Shown here: positions 3,714-30,289 of the stretch, in pieces
Position numbering within the stretch: position 1 is the first letter of the stretch
How the letters are laid out: the number at the start of each line of letters is the position of its first letter
Source: Chitinophagaceae bacterium
GTDB taxonomy: Bacteria; Bacteroidota; Bacteroidia; Chitinophagales; Chitinophagaceae
Direction: 5' to 3'
Assembly: GCA_947451985.1 (NCBI GenBank)
Contig: CANGBQ010000003.1
Coordinates: 1-39,539 of the forward strand
DNA length: 39,539 nt
Translations under genes and position numbers: made by a program
The notes under the pieces: model-generated
The model's database searches: none
What the model saw: only the letters and a program-made list of their open reading frames with translations
What the model was told of the DNA's origin: nothing

Positions 3714-3950
3714 TTGCTTATGTGGAAAGAAGAAAACAATCGGCTGTATAAAAAATTTCAATTTGCGGATTTTGTATCGGCATTTGCTTTTATGGAAAAG
3801 GTGGCTGTATTAGCCGAAACAATGAATCATCATCCACTTTGGACCAATGTGTATAATACAGTGGAGATTTGGCTAAGCACCCATGACGCCGGCAATATCG
3901 TCACAGAAAAAGACCACACCCTGGCCTCGGCCATTGATGGACTTCTTTAA
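3714..3950 (+). CDS. phhB: 4a-hydroxytetrahydrobiopterin dehydratase (pterin-4a-carbinolamine dehydratase)
   Basis: [31 protein letters not shown] matches the PCD/DCoH active-site region; TTG start at 3714 or ATG at 3720. Confidence 0.88.
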
Positions 3951-5017
3951 ATTTTCACTTCAATTGTTTTAGGTTGCTGTGCCATCATTTTACCAATGGG
4001 CCGAACAAATTGTCCGTATCCATGCAGTTTTAATAATTCTATTGCTTCTTCCGCGGCGGCGGGTGAAACTGTAAACAGCAACCCCCCGTTCGTTTGAGGA
4101 TCGGGCAGCAAGCTGAATGCTTCCATCACATTGACGCCTTTTTCAAATTGTACTTTTTCGCTGTAGCTATTCCAGTTGCGATAAGTGGCATCGGGGACCA
4201 TTCTTTGCGCCAAGTATTCTTTACAGCTTTCTATCACAGGAATGGTAGCGTAATATATTTCTGCCGAAAGGCCAGCGCCTTCTGTCATTTCAATTAAGTG
4301 ACCCAATAAGCCAAACCCGGTCACATCTGTCATCGCGGTAACTCCTTGAATCAACCCAAGCGATTGACCAATGCTATTGAGTTGGCTCATCTGTTGAATC
4401 ATGGTATCGGTGGCGGTAGATGAAATAACGCCTCTTTTTTGTGCGGTAGATAAAATACCTACTCCGATTGGTTTGGTAAGAAAAATAAGATCGCCCTCTT
4501 GCGCCGTGTGGTTTCTTTTGAGGTGCTGAATGTTAACCATGCCCGTCACCGCCAAGCCAAACAAAGGCTCTGCAGTATCCACACTGTGACCCCCTGCTAA
4601 AGAAATACCGGCTTCTGTACAAGTTGCGCGCGCGCCCTCTAATACTTGTTGAGCGATGGAAGGTGATAATTTTTCTACGGGCCATCCTAGAATAGCAATA
4701 GATAAGAAGGGTTTGCCGCCCATCGCATAGACATCACTAATGGCATTAGCGGCCGCAATTTTTCCAAAATAAAACGGATCGTCTACGATGGGAGTAAAAA
4801 AATCGGTAGTGGAAATGGTCGCCATGCCATTTCCAATATCATATACAGCAGCATCGTCGTTGGTGTGATTACCAACAAGCAACTTTTTGTCTAACACGCC
4901 CACTTGTTCTGTTTGTAGAATAGATGCCAATACAGCGGGGGCTATTTTACAGCCGCAACCGGCGCCAGAAGAATATTCGGTGAGTCGCATAGGTGTGGAT
5001 GTGGGAGATGATGGCAC
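3947..5017 (-). CDS. selD: Selenide, water dikinase (SelD), Cys form
   Basis: [16 protein letters not shown]-terminal motif; [49 protein letters not shown]. Confidence 0.96.
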
Positions 5018-5020
5018 GAT

Positions 5021-6091
5021 TTAGGATTTAATATGGGAAAGTAATTTTTTAGCATTGGTAAACGAATCAACAGATGCTAGAGAAATATTTTGTAGTAACT
5101 GATTTAGCTGGTCTCTTGAATGCAGTGCCTTGGTATAGGTTTTATCATAATAGCGAAGCAACAAAGAGAATGCCTCTTTTAGATTGTTTTCTTTTATACA
5201 CAGAAGGGTTTGTTTTGTTTCGAAGGGACCAAGCCTTTTTTGAATACGTAAGACTGCTTCACATAGTTTTTCTTTATCCAGTCCAGCATACTCTTCTAGT
5301 ATGTGTTCAAGTCTTTCTTCAAATGGAATATCTAGAAAAAAAACGGGTTGCTGACGAATGGTTTTCCATAGTGCATGCGGAATGTTCAACTTGCCGATTC
5401 TCTGGCTTTCATCTTCTATCCAAAAAAATGGCTGCTCTTCGTTGGTAGCAAGATTGGTTTGATACAATGCCAGTGCCAATTTATTTTCAAACATTTCCTG
5501 AGAAGGTTGTGTAGGTTGTCCAATGCCGCCAAAAGCGGAACCCTTATGGTGAGCCAGTGCTTCGAGGTCAATGTTTTTTTCTCCGAGTGTTTGCAGGGCT
5601 TGTAGTAAAGGGGTTTTGCCGCTGCCCGTATAACCACCTAACACCTTCATCTGATAGGGCTGTTCAAATTGCTGTAGGGTCCAGTTTCGATAAGCTTTAT
5701 ATCCGCCAATCAGTACATGCACATCAAAACCATAGAGATCTAGGAGCCAAGCCACGCCTGCGCTTCTCATGCCCCCTCTCCAGCAATGAACAATGATGGT
5801 GTTGGATTTGGATGTGGCGACATTGTGTTGCTCAATGAGCCGCTCCGCTTCTTCCACCATACTCTTCATCTTGACACCAAAAAAATCAAGACCTTTTTTT
5901 ATTGCTATTTGCTTTCCTTGTTGTTTATAGGCCGTCCCCACAATTTTTCTTTCTTCGTCGGTAAACAGGGGCAATGAATAAGCATGGGGTATATGCGCGT
6001 GTTGGTGTTCGCCCGGGCTTCGCACATCAACAATAGGATGGGTGGGTGCCGCTGCCAAAAATTCTGATATGGTTATTCTTTTTATAGACAA
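5021..6091 (-). CDS. mnmH: tRNA 2-selenouridine synthase (MnmH/SelU)
   Basis: N-terminal rhodanese domain with VHCWRGGMRSAGVAWLL, followed by P-loop GGYTGSGKT; adjacent to selD. Confidence 0.95.
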   Translation of the reverse strand: MSIKRITISEFLAAAPTHPIVDVRSPGEHQHAHIPHAYSLPLFTDEERKIVGTAYKQQGKQIAIKKGLDFFGVKMKSMVEEAERLIEQHNVATSKSNTIIVHCWRGGMRSAGVAWLLDLYGFDVHVLIGGYKAYRNWTLQQFEQPYQMKVLGGYTGSGKTPLLQALQTLGEKNIDLEALAHHKGSAFGGIGQPTQPSQEMFENKLALALYQTNLATNEEQPFFWIEDESQRIGKLNIPHALWKTIRQQPVFFLDIPFEERLEHILEEYAGLDKEKLCEAVLRIQKRLGPFETKQTLLCIKENNLKEAFSLLLRYYDKTYTKALHSRDQLNQLLQNISLASVDSFTNAKKLLSHIKS

Positions 6092-23475: not shown

Positions 23476-24957
23476 TTAGTGTTGATTTTTTTCTCTTAAG
23501 GTTACAGAATTTCCGGCCGTTCCGGTAATCAATCCTTTGCAATTTTTGCTACCACAAGAGCAGTTGAATGGCTCCATGTGTTCATCTAGAAAATCTGCAT
23601 AATCGAGGGTAAGCTCTTCCCCGTTTTTGATGGGTTGTATTGATACTACATCCAAGCCCCGATAAGCGGTATTGGGATTGCAACTGTGATTCTGAGGAGC
23701 CCATTCTGCGGGATGATTGTCCCACAATAAAAACACTTCATTGCTGACCGGATAGGCATATCGTTTAAAGTTTTCAATTTCTTTAGCCCCCCAGTTTTTG
23801 TGAATATAGGATTTGGTAGCCATGCGTTGTGGCCGCTCTTCTCCTTTAAAAATCACTTCATTGACCGCAATATCCCGGTTGGCATAAATACCATATCCAG
23901 CAATCGCATTGCCGCGCATGGTATATTTTTTTTGTTTTTGTCGATGTCTTTCAATGCCCTCTGCTATAATGTGATGCAAAAAAGACTGCTGGCCGGTGCC
24001 ATCATACAGAAGAATATGATCGGCCGAACCCTCATATCCGCTGGAGTAAAACACAGAACAGGTAAAATTAATTTCTAAAAAATACAATACACCCTCTCGG
24101 TTCATTCTGAAATCCAATCGGGCATATCCAACCCCGCCAAACCCTTCAAAAATATCGGTGGCAGCTTTTTGCAGTGTTTCACAAAGCGAAAAATCTTCTA
24201 CCGGTACATTGGCTTTTGGATGCAACTCTGATGTTTTGAGCGCATAGGTTTTAAATTTCCTTCCTTCCGGAAAAACATATTCTACCGGTCTGAAAACCGT
24301 GGTGCCGGATGCATTACCCGGGTTGGCCGCCAACATCACCGTAAACTCTCTGCCGTCCACATATTCTTCTATGAGAAGCGGACCAAACTCTTCTATAATA
24401 TCAGCCACTTTTTGTTTGAGCCCTTGCTCGTTGTGTACCAACGAGGCCTCATCTATACCCAAACTATCACCTGCTTTTGCGGGTTTAACAAAAAGCGGGT
24501 ATTGCAAACCGATGGTTTTTGAACCAATCTCCTCCATTGAATCAACCAACACATAACTCGGACTAGACACACCTTGTGTATAGGCTACGTATTTCATGAG
24601 TTCTTTGGGTGGATCATATAAATTGCTGGTGGGTCCTGTAAAAGGAAGATTCAATAATTCTAAAAAATATATCACATCAATAGAAGGCACTTCCCACTCT
24701 AAATACCCCTCACAAAGATTTACATAAACATCGTATCCTTTCTTACTAGATTCTTTCAACTGCTTAAACGTAGTCAGCTTATTTAAAAAGATATGATCGA
24801 CCGCAGCGTTTGGTAGCAGTGCGGAAAGATTTCTGGGTGGGTCATAATGCTGGTAATCTACACCAGAAGTAGAGTAGTCTGGCTGCAGCACACACACCTG
24901 AAGGGGCTTGCCGTCTGTTCGGCTTGGCAAAGAAGTCAATTGTTTTTTTTCTCCCAT
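23476..24957 (-). CDS. ATP-grasp ligase (D-Ala-D-Ala ligase-like) fused to a C-terminal SET domain with post-SET Cys motif
   Basis: ATP-grasp: YPLFVKPAKAGDSLGIDEAS, LLIEEYVDGREFTVML, YARLDFRMNREGVLYFLEINFTCS. SET: GNAIAGYGIYANRDI, QNHSCNPNT, GEELTLDYADF, CSCGSKNCKG. Confidence 0.88.
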   Translation of the reverse strand: MGEKKQLTSLPSRTDGKPLQVCVLQPDYSTSGVDYQHYDPPRNLSALLPNAAVDHIFLNKLTTFKQLKESSKKGYDVYVNLCEGYLEWEVPSIDVIYFLELLNLPFTGPTSNLYDPPKELMKYVAYTQGVSSPSYVLVDSMEEIGSKTIGLQYPLFVKPAKAGDSLGIDEASLVHNEQGLKQKVADIIEEFGPLLIEEYVDGREFTVMLAANPGNASGTTVFRPVEYVFPEGRKFKTYALKTSELHPKANVPVEDFSLCETLQKAATDIFEGFGGVGYARLDFRMNREGVLYFLEINFTCSVFYSSGYEGSADHILLYDGTGQQSFLHHIIAEGIERHRQKQKKYTMRGNAIAGYGIYANRDIAVNEVIFKGEERPQRMATKSYIHKNWGAKEIENFKRYAYPVSNEVFLLWDNHPAEWAPQNHSCNPNTAYRGLDVVSIQPIKNGEELTLDYADFLDEHMEPFNCSCGSKNCKGLITGTAGNSVTLREKNQH

Positions 24958-24975
24958 GAATATTATACGCTCGAC

Positions 24976-26133
24976 TTATGCGCGCGCGTCAATCGATTTG
25001 TTAAGATAAGACAGTTTTTTGATGGCGGCTCTTTTGAGTGCGTCTGTAATGATTTCTTCCACCAATTGGGTGAAGCTTTTTCCAGATGCTTTTAAAATGG
25101 CCCCAATAGAGGTGTAGTTTTCATCTTCACTGATACCACATTGCGCATTTACTTCCAAAACATACAGCTCTTTGGTGTTGGCATCCATGCGAATATCCAC
25201 TCTAGTATATCCTTTTCCTTTGGTAGCACAATAAGCATCCCAACTGAGTTGCTGAATCGAATCAATCAATGCTTCGTCCGGTCTTTTGTATTCATAAAAA
25301 CTATCTCCATTGGGCATGGCGCTTTCGTTTTCATAAATTTCCCAAAGCCGATCAAAGGACAAAAACTTTTCAGTTTCGGGTAAAGATGCATGAAACACTC
25401 TTTCCACGGGTTTATACACAACAGCCTCATCGGGTCTGTCATAGGAACCACTGATAAATACTGTGTATTCCGGACCGGTAACAAATCGTTCTGCTATCAT
25501 TCCATCAGCAGCTAGGTTCCACCCCCGGTACCCATCAAACAAATCCTGCAACAGTGTTGCTAACTCCTCTTCGTTGTGTACCACATTTTTAATCCCTACT
25601 CCCATGCTGCCACCCGAAATAGCTGGTTTAATAATCAATGGAGTGCCCAGTTTATTGATTAAATGGATTCGATCAATGTCTTTTGTATGAATGCTTTCCC
25701 AAGGAGCGTTGCGAACGCCCGCCGCATCAAAAGCTTTTTTCATGGGAATTTTAGAAGTGGTAATGGTATAGAAGTATTCGTCTGCACCTGTGTAAACCAA
25801 TTGTTTTTCTTCCAACAGTTTGACCACCGACACCCCGGGCGTTCCGTTGACTTCGTCTCCATCACAAAGATTGAGTACTATCGGAAACATTTCCCCCTGC
25901 TTCATTTCGGTTTCAATTTGTTCGATGATTGCAGCATAGGTTTCCATGCTTAGCGGTTGCCAGGCCCAGGGCATTTTCAACCCTTCAAACACTTTTGTGT
26001 ATTCTGCAATGCTTTGAGTAAAGTCGTAATAATAATCAATGTTTTCGTCTGTTGATTCAATCGAAGGCGCCAATACCCACACTTTGATGGCGCGGTCGTT
26101 GATAGCAGCAAAGGATGTAGATTCTTCTTGCAT
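24976..26133 (-). CDS. ATP-grasp ligase (D-Ala-D-Ala ligase-like)
   Basis: TPLIIKPAISGGSMGVGIKNVV, MIAERFVTGPEYTVFISG, YTRVDIRMDANTKELYVLEVNAQCGISED. Confidence 0.88.
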   Translation of the reverse strand: MQEESTSFAAINDRAIKVWVLAPSIESTDENIDYYYDFTQSIAEYTKVFEGLKMPWAWQPLSMETYAAIIEQIETEMKQGEMFPIVLNLCDGDEVNGTPGVSVVKLLEEKQLVYTGADEYFYTITTSKIPMKKAFDAAGVRNAPWESIHTKDIDRIHLINKLGTPLIIKPAISGGSMGVGIKNVVHNEEELATLLQDLFDGYRGWNLAADGMIAERFVTGPEYTVFISGSYDRPDEAVVYKPVERVFHASLPETEKFLSFDRLWEIYENESAMPNGDSFYEYKRPDEALIDSIQQLSWDAYCATKGKGYTRVDIRMDANTKELYVLEVNAQCGISEDENYTSIGAILKASGKSFTQLVEEIITDALKRAAIKKLSYLNKSIDARA

Positions 26134-26144
26134 ACAGGTTTTGA

Positions 26145-26648
26145 CTATTTCCTACTCGCGAGTTGTTGTTGAATAAAATCAGTTAGTTTATAATGATCAA
26201 GTTGTTCATCCGAAAGAAAACGTGCGCCCTTGATTTCAAGCAAACATTCCGGCTGACCGCAAGCACATGGAAAAGCCTCCGCCATTTCCCATTCGGTAGA
26301 AGGATAAAAGAAACACAGCTCTTCGCCCGCTTCAATATCCTGTAGGGCAATGAATCCCATCAGCGTAGTGTCAAAAAACACATTCGGCCGACAACTGTGA
26401 TTGGTATATTGTAAAAAAGACGGCGCCAATGAGATGTGTTTGTTTTCTCCCGTTTGAATGGTTAGATAAGTAGGCTCGTTGAAGGTTTCCGCAGCGCTAA
26501 AAGATACGAGCACTTCATTTTTTTTATACGCTACGGATGCATGCAAGGCTTTTTGTTGTCTTTGAGAATGGTATGCCACAAAGCATTCGGCATGCCTGCT
26601 GATGATTTCGTGTGCGCCCGCGACAAGTGTAGAATGTGTCATATTCAA
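26145..26648 (-). CDS. Stand-alone SET domain protein with post-SET cysteines
   Basis: YTNHSCRPNVFFD, IEAGEELCFFYPS, CACGQPECLLEIKG: SET NHSCxPN core, GEEL, and post-SET CxCxxxxC. Confidence 0.82.
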   Translation of the reverse strand: MNMTHSTLVAGAHEIISRHAECFVAYHSQRQQKALHASVAYKKNEVLVSFSAAETFNEPTYLTIQTGENKHISLAPSFLQYTNHSCRPNVFFDTTLMGFIALQDIEAGEELCFFYPSTEWEMAEAFPCACGQPECLLEIKGARFLSDEQLDHYKLTDFIQQQLASRK

Positions 26649-26721
26649 GCACGACGGTTAAATGGACGTGCCGCTTTTTTTAATAATGTTTGAAAGGTAA
26701 AAACAATCATTATTATAAATG

Positions 26722-26743
26722 GAAAACTTATAAGTAAGTTTTC
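26722..26743. other. Intergenic hairpin between the cupin gene and the SET gene
   Basis: GAAAACTTA-TAAG-TAAGTTTTC: perfect 9-bp stem, 4-nt loop. Confidence 0.7.
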
Positions 26744-26767
26744 AACAATACACAATAGACAATGCGC

Positions 26768-28783: not shown

Positions 28784-30289
28784 TTATTGTAAAGCCAACA
28801 CCTCCTCTACAATGGTTCTCTCGTTGCTCAATCGTGGAATTTTATGTTGCCCCCCGAGTTTGTTTTTAGATTGCAACCAACGATTGAATGTTCCCTTTCG
28901 AATGGCACGAACCGTGGGCAGACCCAGCGCAATGTCCTTAAACCGCTTGGCTTCATAATCACTGTTGATATTTTTTAGTTCCTGATCGAGCGTTGCTACA
29001 AAGTTTTCAAGGCTGTCGGGTGCTTGTTCAAATTCTACCAGCCATTCGTGTGCGCCGTTTCGTTGATCAGAAAAATAAATCGGAGCAGCGGTATAGTCTA
29101 ATACCACCGCCTTTGTTTTGAAAGCCGCTGCGGCGATGGCTTGGTCTGCATTGTCAACAATAATTTCTTCTCCAAACGCATTCATATAATGCTTTATCCG
29201 CCCCGTCACTTTTATCCTGTAAGGATTGATGGAAGTAAACTTAATCGTATCTCCAATCAGATAGCGCCACAAACCACCAGTGGTACTGATGACCATTGCA
29301 TAGTTTTTATTCACTTCCACCTTGTCTAGCCCAACGGTTTCGGGTGTTTCTTTTTGGTATTCCTCGGCAGGCATAAACTCATAAAAAACACCATGTTCTG
29401 TAAACAGGGTCATACCATCATCTTCGGGTTTTTCCTGTGCGGCAAAAAAACCCTCGCTCGCATTGTAAATTTCAAGGTAATTGATGGGCGCCCCGATGAT
29501 TTTTTCAAATTGCTCACGATAAGGCACAAACGAAACCCCGCCATTGATATACAATTCCAGGTTGGGCCACACTTCTTTGATGGTTTTCTTTCCTTTGATC
29601 TCCAGTATCCGCTTCAGCAACAAGAGTGTCCAGGTGGGAACCCCTGCAAGCGAAGTGACATTTTCTTTGGCGGTGGTTTGCGCCAGCTGTTCTAATTTTT
29701 GGTCCCACTCATCCAGCAGGGCCACACTCAATTCGGGAGTTCGTAACCACTGTCCCCAAAAAGGCGTGTTTTGCATCAGCACGGCACTCAAGTCGCCGTA
29801 TTGAATGGCTTCATTCACCTGGTGTATTTGGTGTGATCCACCCACCACCAAACCTTTTCCTGTCAACAGGTCGCTCGAAGGAAAGTTTTTATAATAATTG
29901 GTCAACACATCCTTGCTTGCCTTGAAATGATTTTCCTGTAGGCTTTCTTCGCTGATGGGAATAAACTTGCTTTTATCGTTGGAGGTCCCACTGCTTTTAG
30001 CAAACCACCCAATAGGCGAATCCCACAAAACATTTTCTTCTCCATCCATCATGCGCTGGATGTAGGGACGAAGGGAATCGTATTCTTGAATGGGAACCGT
30101 TTTTTTAAAGTCCTTTACGGAAAAAAGAGAAGAGAAGTGATGTTGTTTTCCAAAAGCTGTGTATTGTGCCTCTGTAATCAGCGACTGCAACACTTCTCGC
30201 TGGGCCGACACCGGATAATTGGTCCAGTTGTTGATTCGCCACAGGCGCATCCTTGCCAATTTTGATATAGCAGCGGACAAGAGCTTCAT
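28784..30289 (-). CDS. GH3 auxin-responsive promoter family protein (acyl-adenylase superfamily)
   Basis: FAKSSGTSNDKSKFIPIS, EIYNASEGFFAAQ, GLWRYLIGDTIKFTSINPYRIKVTGRIKHYMNAFGEE. Confidence 0.92.
   Translation of the reverse strand: MKLLSAAISKLARMRLWRINNWTNYPVSAQREVLQSLITEAQYTAFGKQHHFSSLFSVKDFKKTVPIQEYDSLRPYIQRMMDGEENVLWDSPIGWFAKSSGTSNDKSKFIPISEESLQENHFKASKDVLTNYYKNFPSSDLLTGKGLVVGGSHQIHQVNEAIQYGDLSAVLMQNTPFWGQWLRTPELSVALLDEWDQKLEQLAQTTAKENVTSLAGVPTWTLLLLKRILEIKGKKTIKEVWPNLELYINGGVSFVPYREQFEKIIGAPINYLEIYNASEGFFAAQEKPEDDGMTLFTEHGVFYEFMPAEEYQKETPETVGLDKVEVNKNYAMVISTTGGLWRYLIGDTIKFTSINPYRIKVTGRIKHYMNAFGEEIIVDNADQAIAAAAFKTKAVVLDYTAAPIYFSDQRNGAHEWLVEFEQAPDSLENFVATLDQELKNINSDYEAKRFKDIALGLPTVRAIRKGTFNRWLQSKNKLGGQHKIPRLSNERTIVEEVLALQ

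Follow-up and report, generated by a model that had tools for sequence, protein, structure and literature searches.

The routine annotation of a bacterial SET protein is protein-lysine N-methyltransferase. For ATP-grasp enzymes, the comparative genomics of Iyer et al. in 2009 reportedly predicted amidoligase/peptidase operons in which such enzymes make novel peptides. No description of a bacterial association between SET and ATP-grasp proteins, or of a ligase–SET fusion, was found in the open literature searched, outside which the main amidoligase survey lies. The SET-domain proteins BurB/MSMT serve DMSP biosynthesis as methionine S-methyltransferases (PMC12542666; PDB 9l4t, 9l4v), and BurB turns free methionine into S-methylmethionine, gripping its substrate mainly through main-chain contacts (PMC12542666).

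The window (the whole stretch of DNA that was analysed, 39,539 nt) contains three ORFs that lie in the same orientation on the minus strand, span 26642/26648 to 23476 and encode, in order, a SET protein, an ATP-grasp protein and an ATP-grasp–SET fusion. The intergenic gaps, read from the ORFs of the window, are 11 and 18 bp; this is the layout that the original prediction had described, and it is borne out by the ORFs and by Pfam. The features are the following:

26649..26767, minus strand: upstream intergenic region, presumed promoter (read from the sequence)
26145..26648, minus strand: stand-alone BurB-like SET methyltransferase (Pfam SET, BurB match, invariant motifs)
24976..26133, minus strand: ATP-grasp ligase 2, D-Ala-D-Ala-ligase fold but not Ddl (PF07478, invariant residues, Ddl score below cut-off)
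23476..24957, minus strand: ATP-grasp–SET fusion (PF07478 and SET, orthologues, AlphaFold)
23938..24903, minus strand: ATP-grasp domain of the fusion, residues ~19–340 (aligned to Ddl structures; invariant residues)
23518..23925, minus strand: C-terminal SET domain of the fusion, residues ~345–480 (invariant motifs)

The intergenic region upstream of the cassette includes a perfect 8-bp inverted repeat, GAAAACTT-acttat-AAGTTTTC, a possible operator or terminator. The host genome is a 1.78 Mb draft that is 92% complete, and in a species-level scan the nearest named relatives of the window are Chitinophagaceae assemblies. An ordinary D-Ala-D-Ala ligase is encoded elsewhere in this genome, as are two more small SET genes, on other contigs. 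No Rfam features or tRNAs were found in the window. We note two further regions of it: the GH3-like protein at 28784–30289 matches OlsH (lyso-ornithine lipid synthetase) with E 1e-127 and 427 bits against a curated cut-off of 620, and is perhaps a related lipid-amino-acid ligase, and at 3947–6091 an AIR-synthase-like gene (SelD type) adjoins a gene for a 356 aa rhodanese-domain protein, possibly forming a selenouridine tRNA modification pair.

The stand-alone SET protein is 167 aa long from a TTG at 26648 and 165 aa long from an in-frame ATG at 26642; the latter is the likelier start, because ATG begins 48 of 49 orthologues. It matches Pfam SET (PF00856, E 1.2e-9) above the curated cut-off. 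Its nearest solved relative by sequence, profile and fold is BurB, which is the best phmmer match (9l4t/9l4v, E 2.4e-10), has a profile E value of 1.2e-18 versus 6.7e-8 for the next match, the best histone methyltransferase, and is found by Foldseek with the predicted model (pLDDT 92.7) at E 2.4e-9 versus 2.0e-6 for the next structure. The NHSC motif, the catalytic tyrosine and the zinc or post-SET cysteines are all retained; N83, H84, C86, Y115 and the CxCx4C motif are invariant among 30 orthologues. In our SET tree, which sampled a single Bur-cluster SET (that of Eleftheria), the latter pairs with a Sphingomonas SET (99/94), and the cassette SETs fall in another, more weakly supported group (92/92) that excludes this pair. 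Because the tree splits off the Bur-cluster SET, and because the Asn of the NHSC motif is lost in BurB but present in the cassette SETs, methionine specificity should not be assumed for the latter. By analogy, BurB demonstrates that a small-molecule mode is open to SETs of such a kind, and does not make methionine the cassette substrate. None of the BurB pathway partners (SMM decarboxylase, aminotransferase and dehydrogenase) is found next to the stand-alone SET gene, whose neighbours are ATP-grasp genes, and the flanks of the cassette vary. BurB-like SET genes also occur on two plasmids. That of Sphingomonas paeninsulae (L178, 5797–7535) adjoins a diaminopimelate-decarboxylase-like gene, and that of Eleftheria terrae (L177, 5848–10316) lies in a PKS/aminotransferase/dehydrogenase cluster that resembles bur; both are annotated as protein-lysine methyltransferases and are probably misannotated small-molecule methyltransferases.

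Ligase 2 (385 aa) matches Dala_Dala_lig_C (PF07478, E 4.9e-17), and the 493 aa fusion protein matches both PF07478 (E 3.6e-18) and SET (E 3.8e-9), in every case above the curated cut-off. The fusion has 67 full-length intact orthologues; its AlphaFold model has a pLDDT of 84.4 and a pTM of 0.82, and a fold search with the predicted structure matches its ATP-grasp part to Ddl structures at E ~5e-18. The ATP-grasp Arg and the Mg-ATP ligands Asp, Glu and Asn are retained throughout the alignments of both cassette ligases, R311, D313, E327 and N329 being invariant in ligase 2 (44 orthologues) and R280, D282, E295 and N297 in the fusion. The fused SET domain has an invariant GxG (G354/G356), N423, H424, C426, Y453, C466, C468 and C473 in 45 sequences, and its matches to BurB and to MLL-type SETs are of about equal strength. 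The Ddl/Van family models give the cassette ligases 74 and 90 bits versus cut-offs of 245.65 and 243 (ligase 2 is the one with 90 versus 243), and the Ddl acceptor motif NTxPG(M/Q)(T/S), which follows the LEIN/LEVN Mg ligands, is replaced in them by NFTCSVF and NAQCGLS. In a midpoint-rooted tree the two are sisters, apart from Ddl and from the tandem ligases linked to KamA genes (see below). They are, then, a non-Ddl sister pair with the D-Ala-D-Ala-ligase fold. Descent of the pair from the KamA-linked tandem ATP-grasps is ruled out by the tree, in which it is separate from both KamA-linked groups. A recent duplication as the source of both cassette SETs is likewise ruled out, as they fall in separate, well-supported clades of the SET tree.

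The trio is a strongly conserved, co-inherited functional cassette. Our systematic search covered Bacteroidota genomes. At the order level, 20 of 199 genomes encode the fusion and the identical 20 encode ligase 2; the stand-alone SET is present in 17 of the 20 and absent from three. Only two genomes of this survey (G042 and G129) have an orthologue-grade SET but no ligases. Fisher tests that ignore kinship give p values of 7e-28 for fusion and ligase 2 and 1e-19 for the SET, and the distribution within the family is patchy. A species-level GTDB scan found 467 encoding stretches, from which 80 loci were kept; 66 of these have more than 2.2 kb of upstream DNA and so are testable, and in them ligase 2 adjoins the fusion in 66/66 and the SET is present in 57/66, such counts from public assemblies being lower bounds where contigs end. 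Median intergenic gaps across loci are 6 and 17 bp. The recurrence of the gene order in dozens of independent assemblies argues that the cassette is not a chance arrangement, and the evolutionary distances of its three proteins correlate (r 0.65–0.75, as raw values with no background gene as reference). Shared function is better argued by retention of the genes when they are unlinked than by the operon: the SET gene lies 1.7 Mb from the ligases in G114 and on a separate contig from them in G136, and G398, from another class, has SET and ligase 2 on one contig and the fusion on another. The physical fusion of ligase and SET is present in distant clades too.

Conservation of the trio and SAM-binding residues in the SET domains had been set as tests of the single-pathway idea. 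The genes proved to be co-retained even when unlinked, and the motifs for SAM binding and catalysis are intact in both SETs: NHSC, the catalytic Tyr and zinc-binding Cys residues, with GxG in the fusion. Together with the kept ATP-grasp motifs, these results leave the idea of a single pathway well supported. Other origins were considered. A viral one is rejected, since the viral contigs searched contain no cassette relative, and so are plasmid-borne copies, since plasmids yield only generic ATP-grasps and separate SETs.

The genes that flank the cassette vary among genomes, and this, with the near-zero gaps inside it, argues that it is a self-contained unit. The exception is an orphan PF13748 ABC-exporter membrane domain: 46 of 72 loci (for example L028, 8818–9753) encode one downstream of the fusion, at a distance of about 100 bp, and its pattern on the tree needs about 15 gains or losses. 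No LSGGQ-like motif that might mark an ATPase partner for this domain was found up to 2.5 kb downstream in 48 loci. The window's own genome is without the PF13748 protein, so export is not universal, and the data suggest export of the product for some of the lineages only. A distant clade (L156, L159 and L160) has a third SET gene, a complete ABC exporter, the fusion and a BurB-like SET gene in that order; ligase 2 is absent nearby, and the exporter is unrelated to the PF13748 domain. In a single genome (G397, locus L157) the fusion adjoins genes for an FGase, a MATCAP-type peptidase, a glutathione-synthetase-like ATP-grasp and a gamma-glutamyltranspeptidase, all of them amide-bond enzymes. 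The exporter and G397 contexts point to small-molecule amide chemistry and transport. Within 900 bp of the cassette no conserved precursor-peptide ORF was found on the sense strand at 67 loci, where the recurrent small ORFs resemble antisense shadows or pieces of neighbouring genes.

We think it rather probable that the cassette is a self-contained pathway that joins and methylates amino acids, and that its product is a small, probably exported, charged peptide. The two paralogous ATP-grasps would link free amino acids or short peptides by amide bonds through an acyl-phosphate, a step that is expected from what is known of the family and from the conserved residues; the fold, which is of the Ddl type, and the negative search for a precursor gene point to free amino acids or short peptides as substrates. 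Since their catalytic residues are conserved, both SETs are expected to be SAM-dependent methyltransferases, and their target would be an amino acid or the ligated product. A free amino acid may be the substrate of the stand-alone SET, as it is of BurB, with S-methylmethionine or a basic amino acid carrying an N-methyl group as possible products, and the fused SET may modify the substrate or the product of the ligase to which it is attached; the fusion and the co-retention of the genes support such coupling of ligation and methylation. The product would be a small methylated peptide-like compound, probably permanently charged as a sulfonium or quaternary ammonium, that presumably crosses the membrane in many lineages. 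The lysine N-methylation proposed in the original prediction finds no support, as both profile and fold place the stand-alone SET nearest to BurB, an enzyme that methylates the sulfur of free methionine; that the SETs act on lysine or on a protein is no more than conceivable.

The strongest competitor to this small-molecule pathway, though in our judgement an unlikely one, is a protein substrate, to which the ATP-grasps would attach amino acids in the manner of tubulin tyrosine ligases and whose lysines the SETs would methylate. Protein-lysine methylation is the classical activity of SET domains, and the fused one aligns over its full length with MLL-type enzymes, but BurB, the closest solved match to the stand-alone SET, uses free Met. 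Human TTLL12 joins SET-like and TTL (ATP-grasp) domains (PMC3520985), whereas the cassette ATP-grasps are of the Ddl type, a small-molecule fold class, and not of the TTL type. A MATCAP-type carboxypeptidase lies beside one relative; against the protein reading stand the absence of any conserved partner or target gene from the cassette and the recurrent exporter genes, to which a protein target gives no obvious role. It is also conceivable, but to our minds quite improbable, that the ligases make a modified peptidoglycan or other cell-surface peptide terminus, as VanA does, with methylation as a decoration. The fold is that of Ddl/Van and the top structural matches are Ddl, yet scores of 74 and 90 bits are far under the Ddl/Van cut-offs of about 245, the NTxPG acceptor motif is replaced in both ligases, the window's genome has a canonical Ddl gene at another position, VanH, VanX and Mur genes are absent nearby, and the cassette is patchily distributed.

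ATP-grasp ligases and methyltransferases are common in RiPP clusters (PMC8939145), and the cassette ligases might act, as in graspetides, on a genetically encoded ribosomal precursor; the 67 loci without a conserved sense-strand small ORF near the cassette, and ligases of the Ddl type rather than the graspetide type, make this a very remote prospect. Just as hard to credit is that unrelated ligases and methyltransferases share an operon by chance. Three ligase-bearing genomes are indeed without the SET, and conversely the BurB-like SET genes of G042 (two, L197 and L198) and G129 (L199) have no ATP-grasp neighbour, so that the SET can function outside the cassette. However, the two ligases co-occur exactly, the order is conserved, the genes are co-retained when unlinked, and a ligase and a SET are physically fused, distant clades included.

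From sequence comparisons, then, the cassette most likely builds and methylates a small amino-acid compound. We put forward more tentatively, as a possibility that we would not yet favour, that it represents a new natural-product or osmolyte-like class, made by coupling ATP-grasp ligation to SET methylation of free amino acids with one polypeptide holding both, whose members would be exported sulfonium- or betaine-type peptides. If that were so, SET enzymes would be general bacterial small-molecule methyltransferases; a cassette that has BurB as its nearest solved relative suggests in any case a whole SET branch that acts on small molecules. Hundreds of genomes from Bacteroidota common in soil and fresh water carry the cassette (the 467 relatives), so its product may be an abundant metabolite that has escaped recognition, and the three-gene unit is small enough for direct expression and product identification.

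Among described systems, BurB and the cassette stand-alone SET are alike in being a single small SET domain of about 170 aa, with the common motifs (T/S)xQ...H...HSCxPN...YxSTE...FxCxCG...C...IxGA; the NHSC of the cassette SETs is LHSC in BurB, whose partners are a decarboxylase, an aminotransferase and a dehydrogenase, all three of which the cassette is without. With the Ddl/Van ligases the cassette ligases share the ATP-grasp fold and the ATP/Mg residues, but they differ in their N-terminal and acceptor motifs, their sub-cut-off scores, their separate clade and the SET fusion. TTLL12 likewise has SET-like and ATP-grasp ligase-like domains in one polypeptide, but it is eukaryotic, its ligase-like domain is of the TTL type and the searches that we ran found it unrelated to the cassette; the abstract of the TTLL12 paper reports no histone methylation activity (PMC3520985). 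In other Bacteroidota classes (L161–L169 and L175) we noted recurrent tandem Ddl-like ATP-grasp genes followed by genes for a GNAT acetyltransferase and a lysine 2,3-aminomutase-like (KamA) radical SAM protein, often adjoining a long gene (RecG-like in L164) and possibly forming a beta-lysine peptide pathway. Like the cassette, these clusters combine two neighbouring genes for Ddl-like ATP-grasps with enzymes that modify amino acids, but they have no SET, and because the ligases form separate clades the two tandem pairs arose independently. The amidoligase operons, too, are centred on ATP-grasp ligases, and one cassette relative sits in an FGase–MATCAP–GshB-like cluster; what distinguishes the cassette from them is that SETs are its fixed partners and that one of its ligases is fused to a SET.
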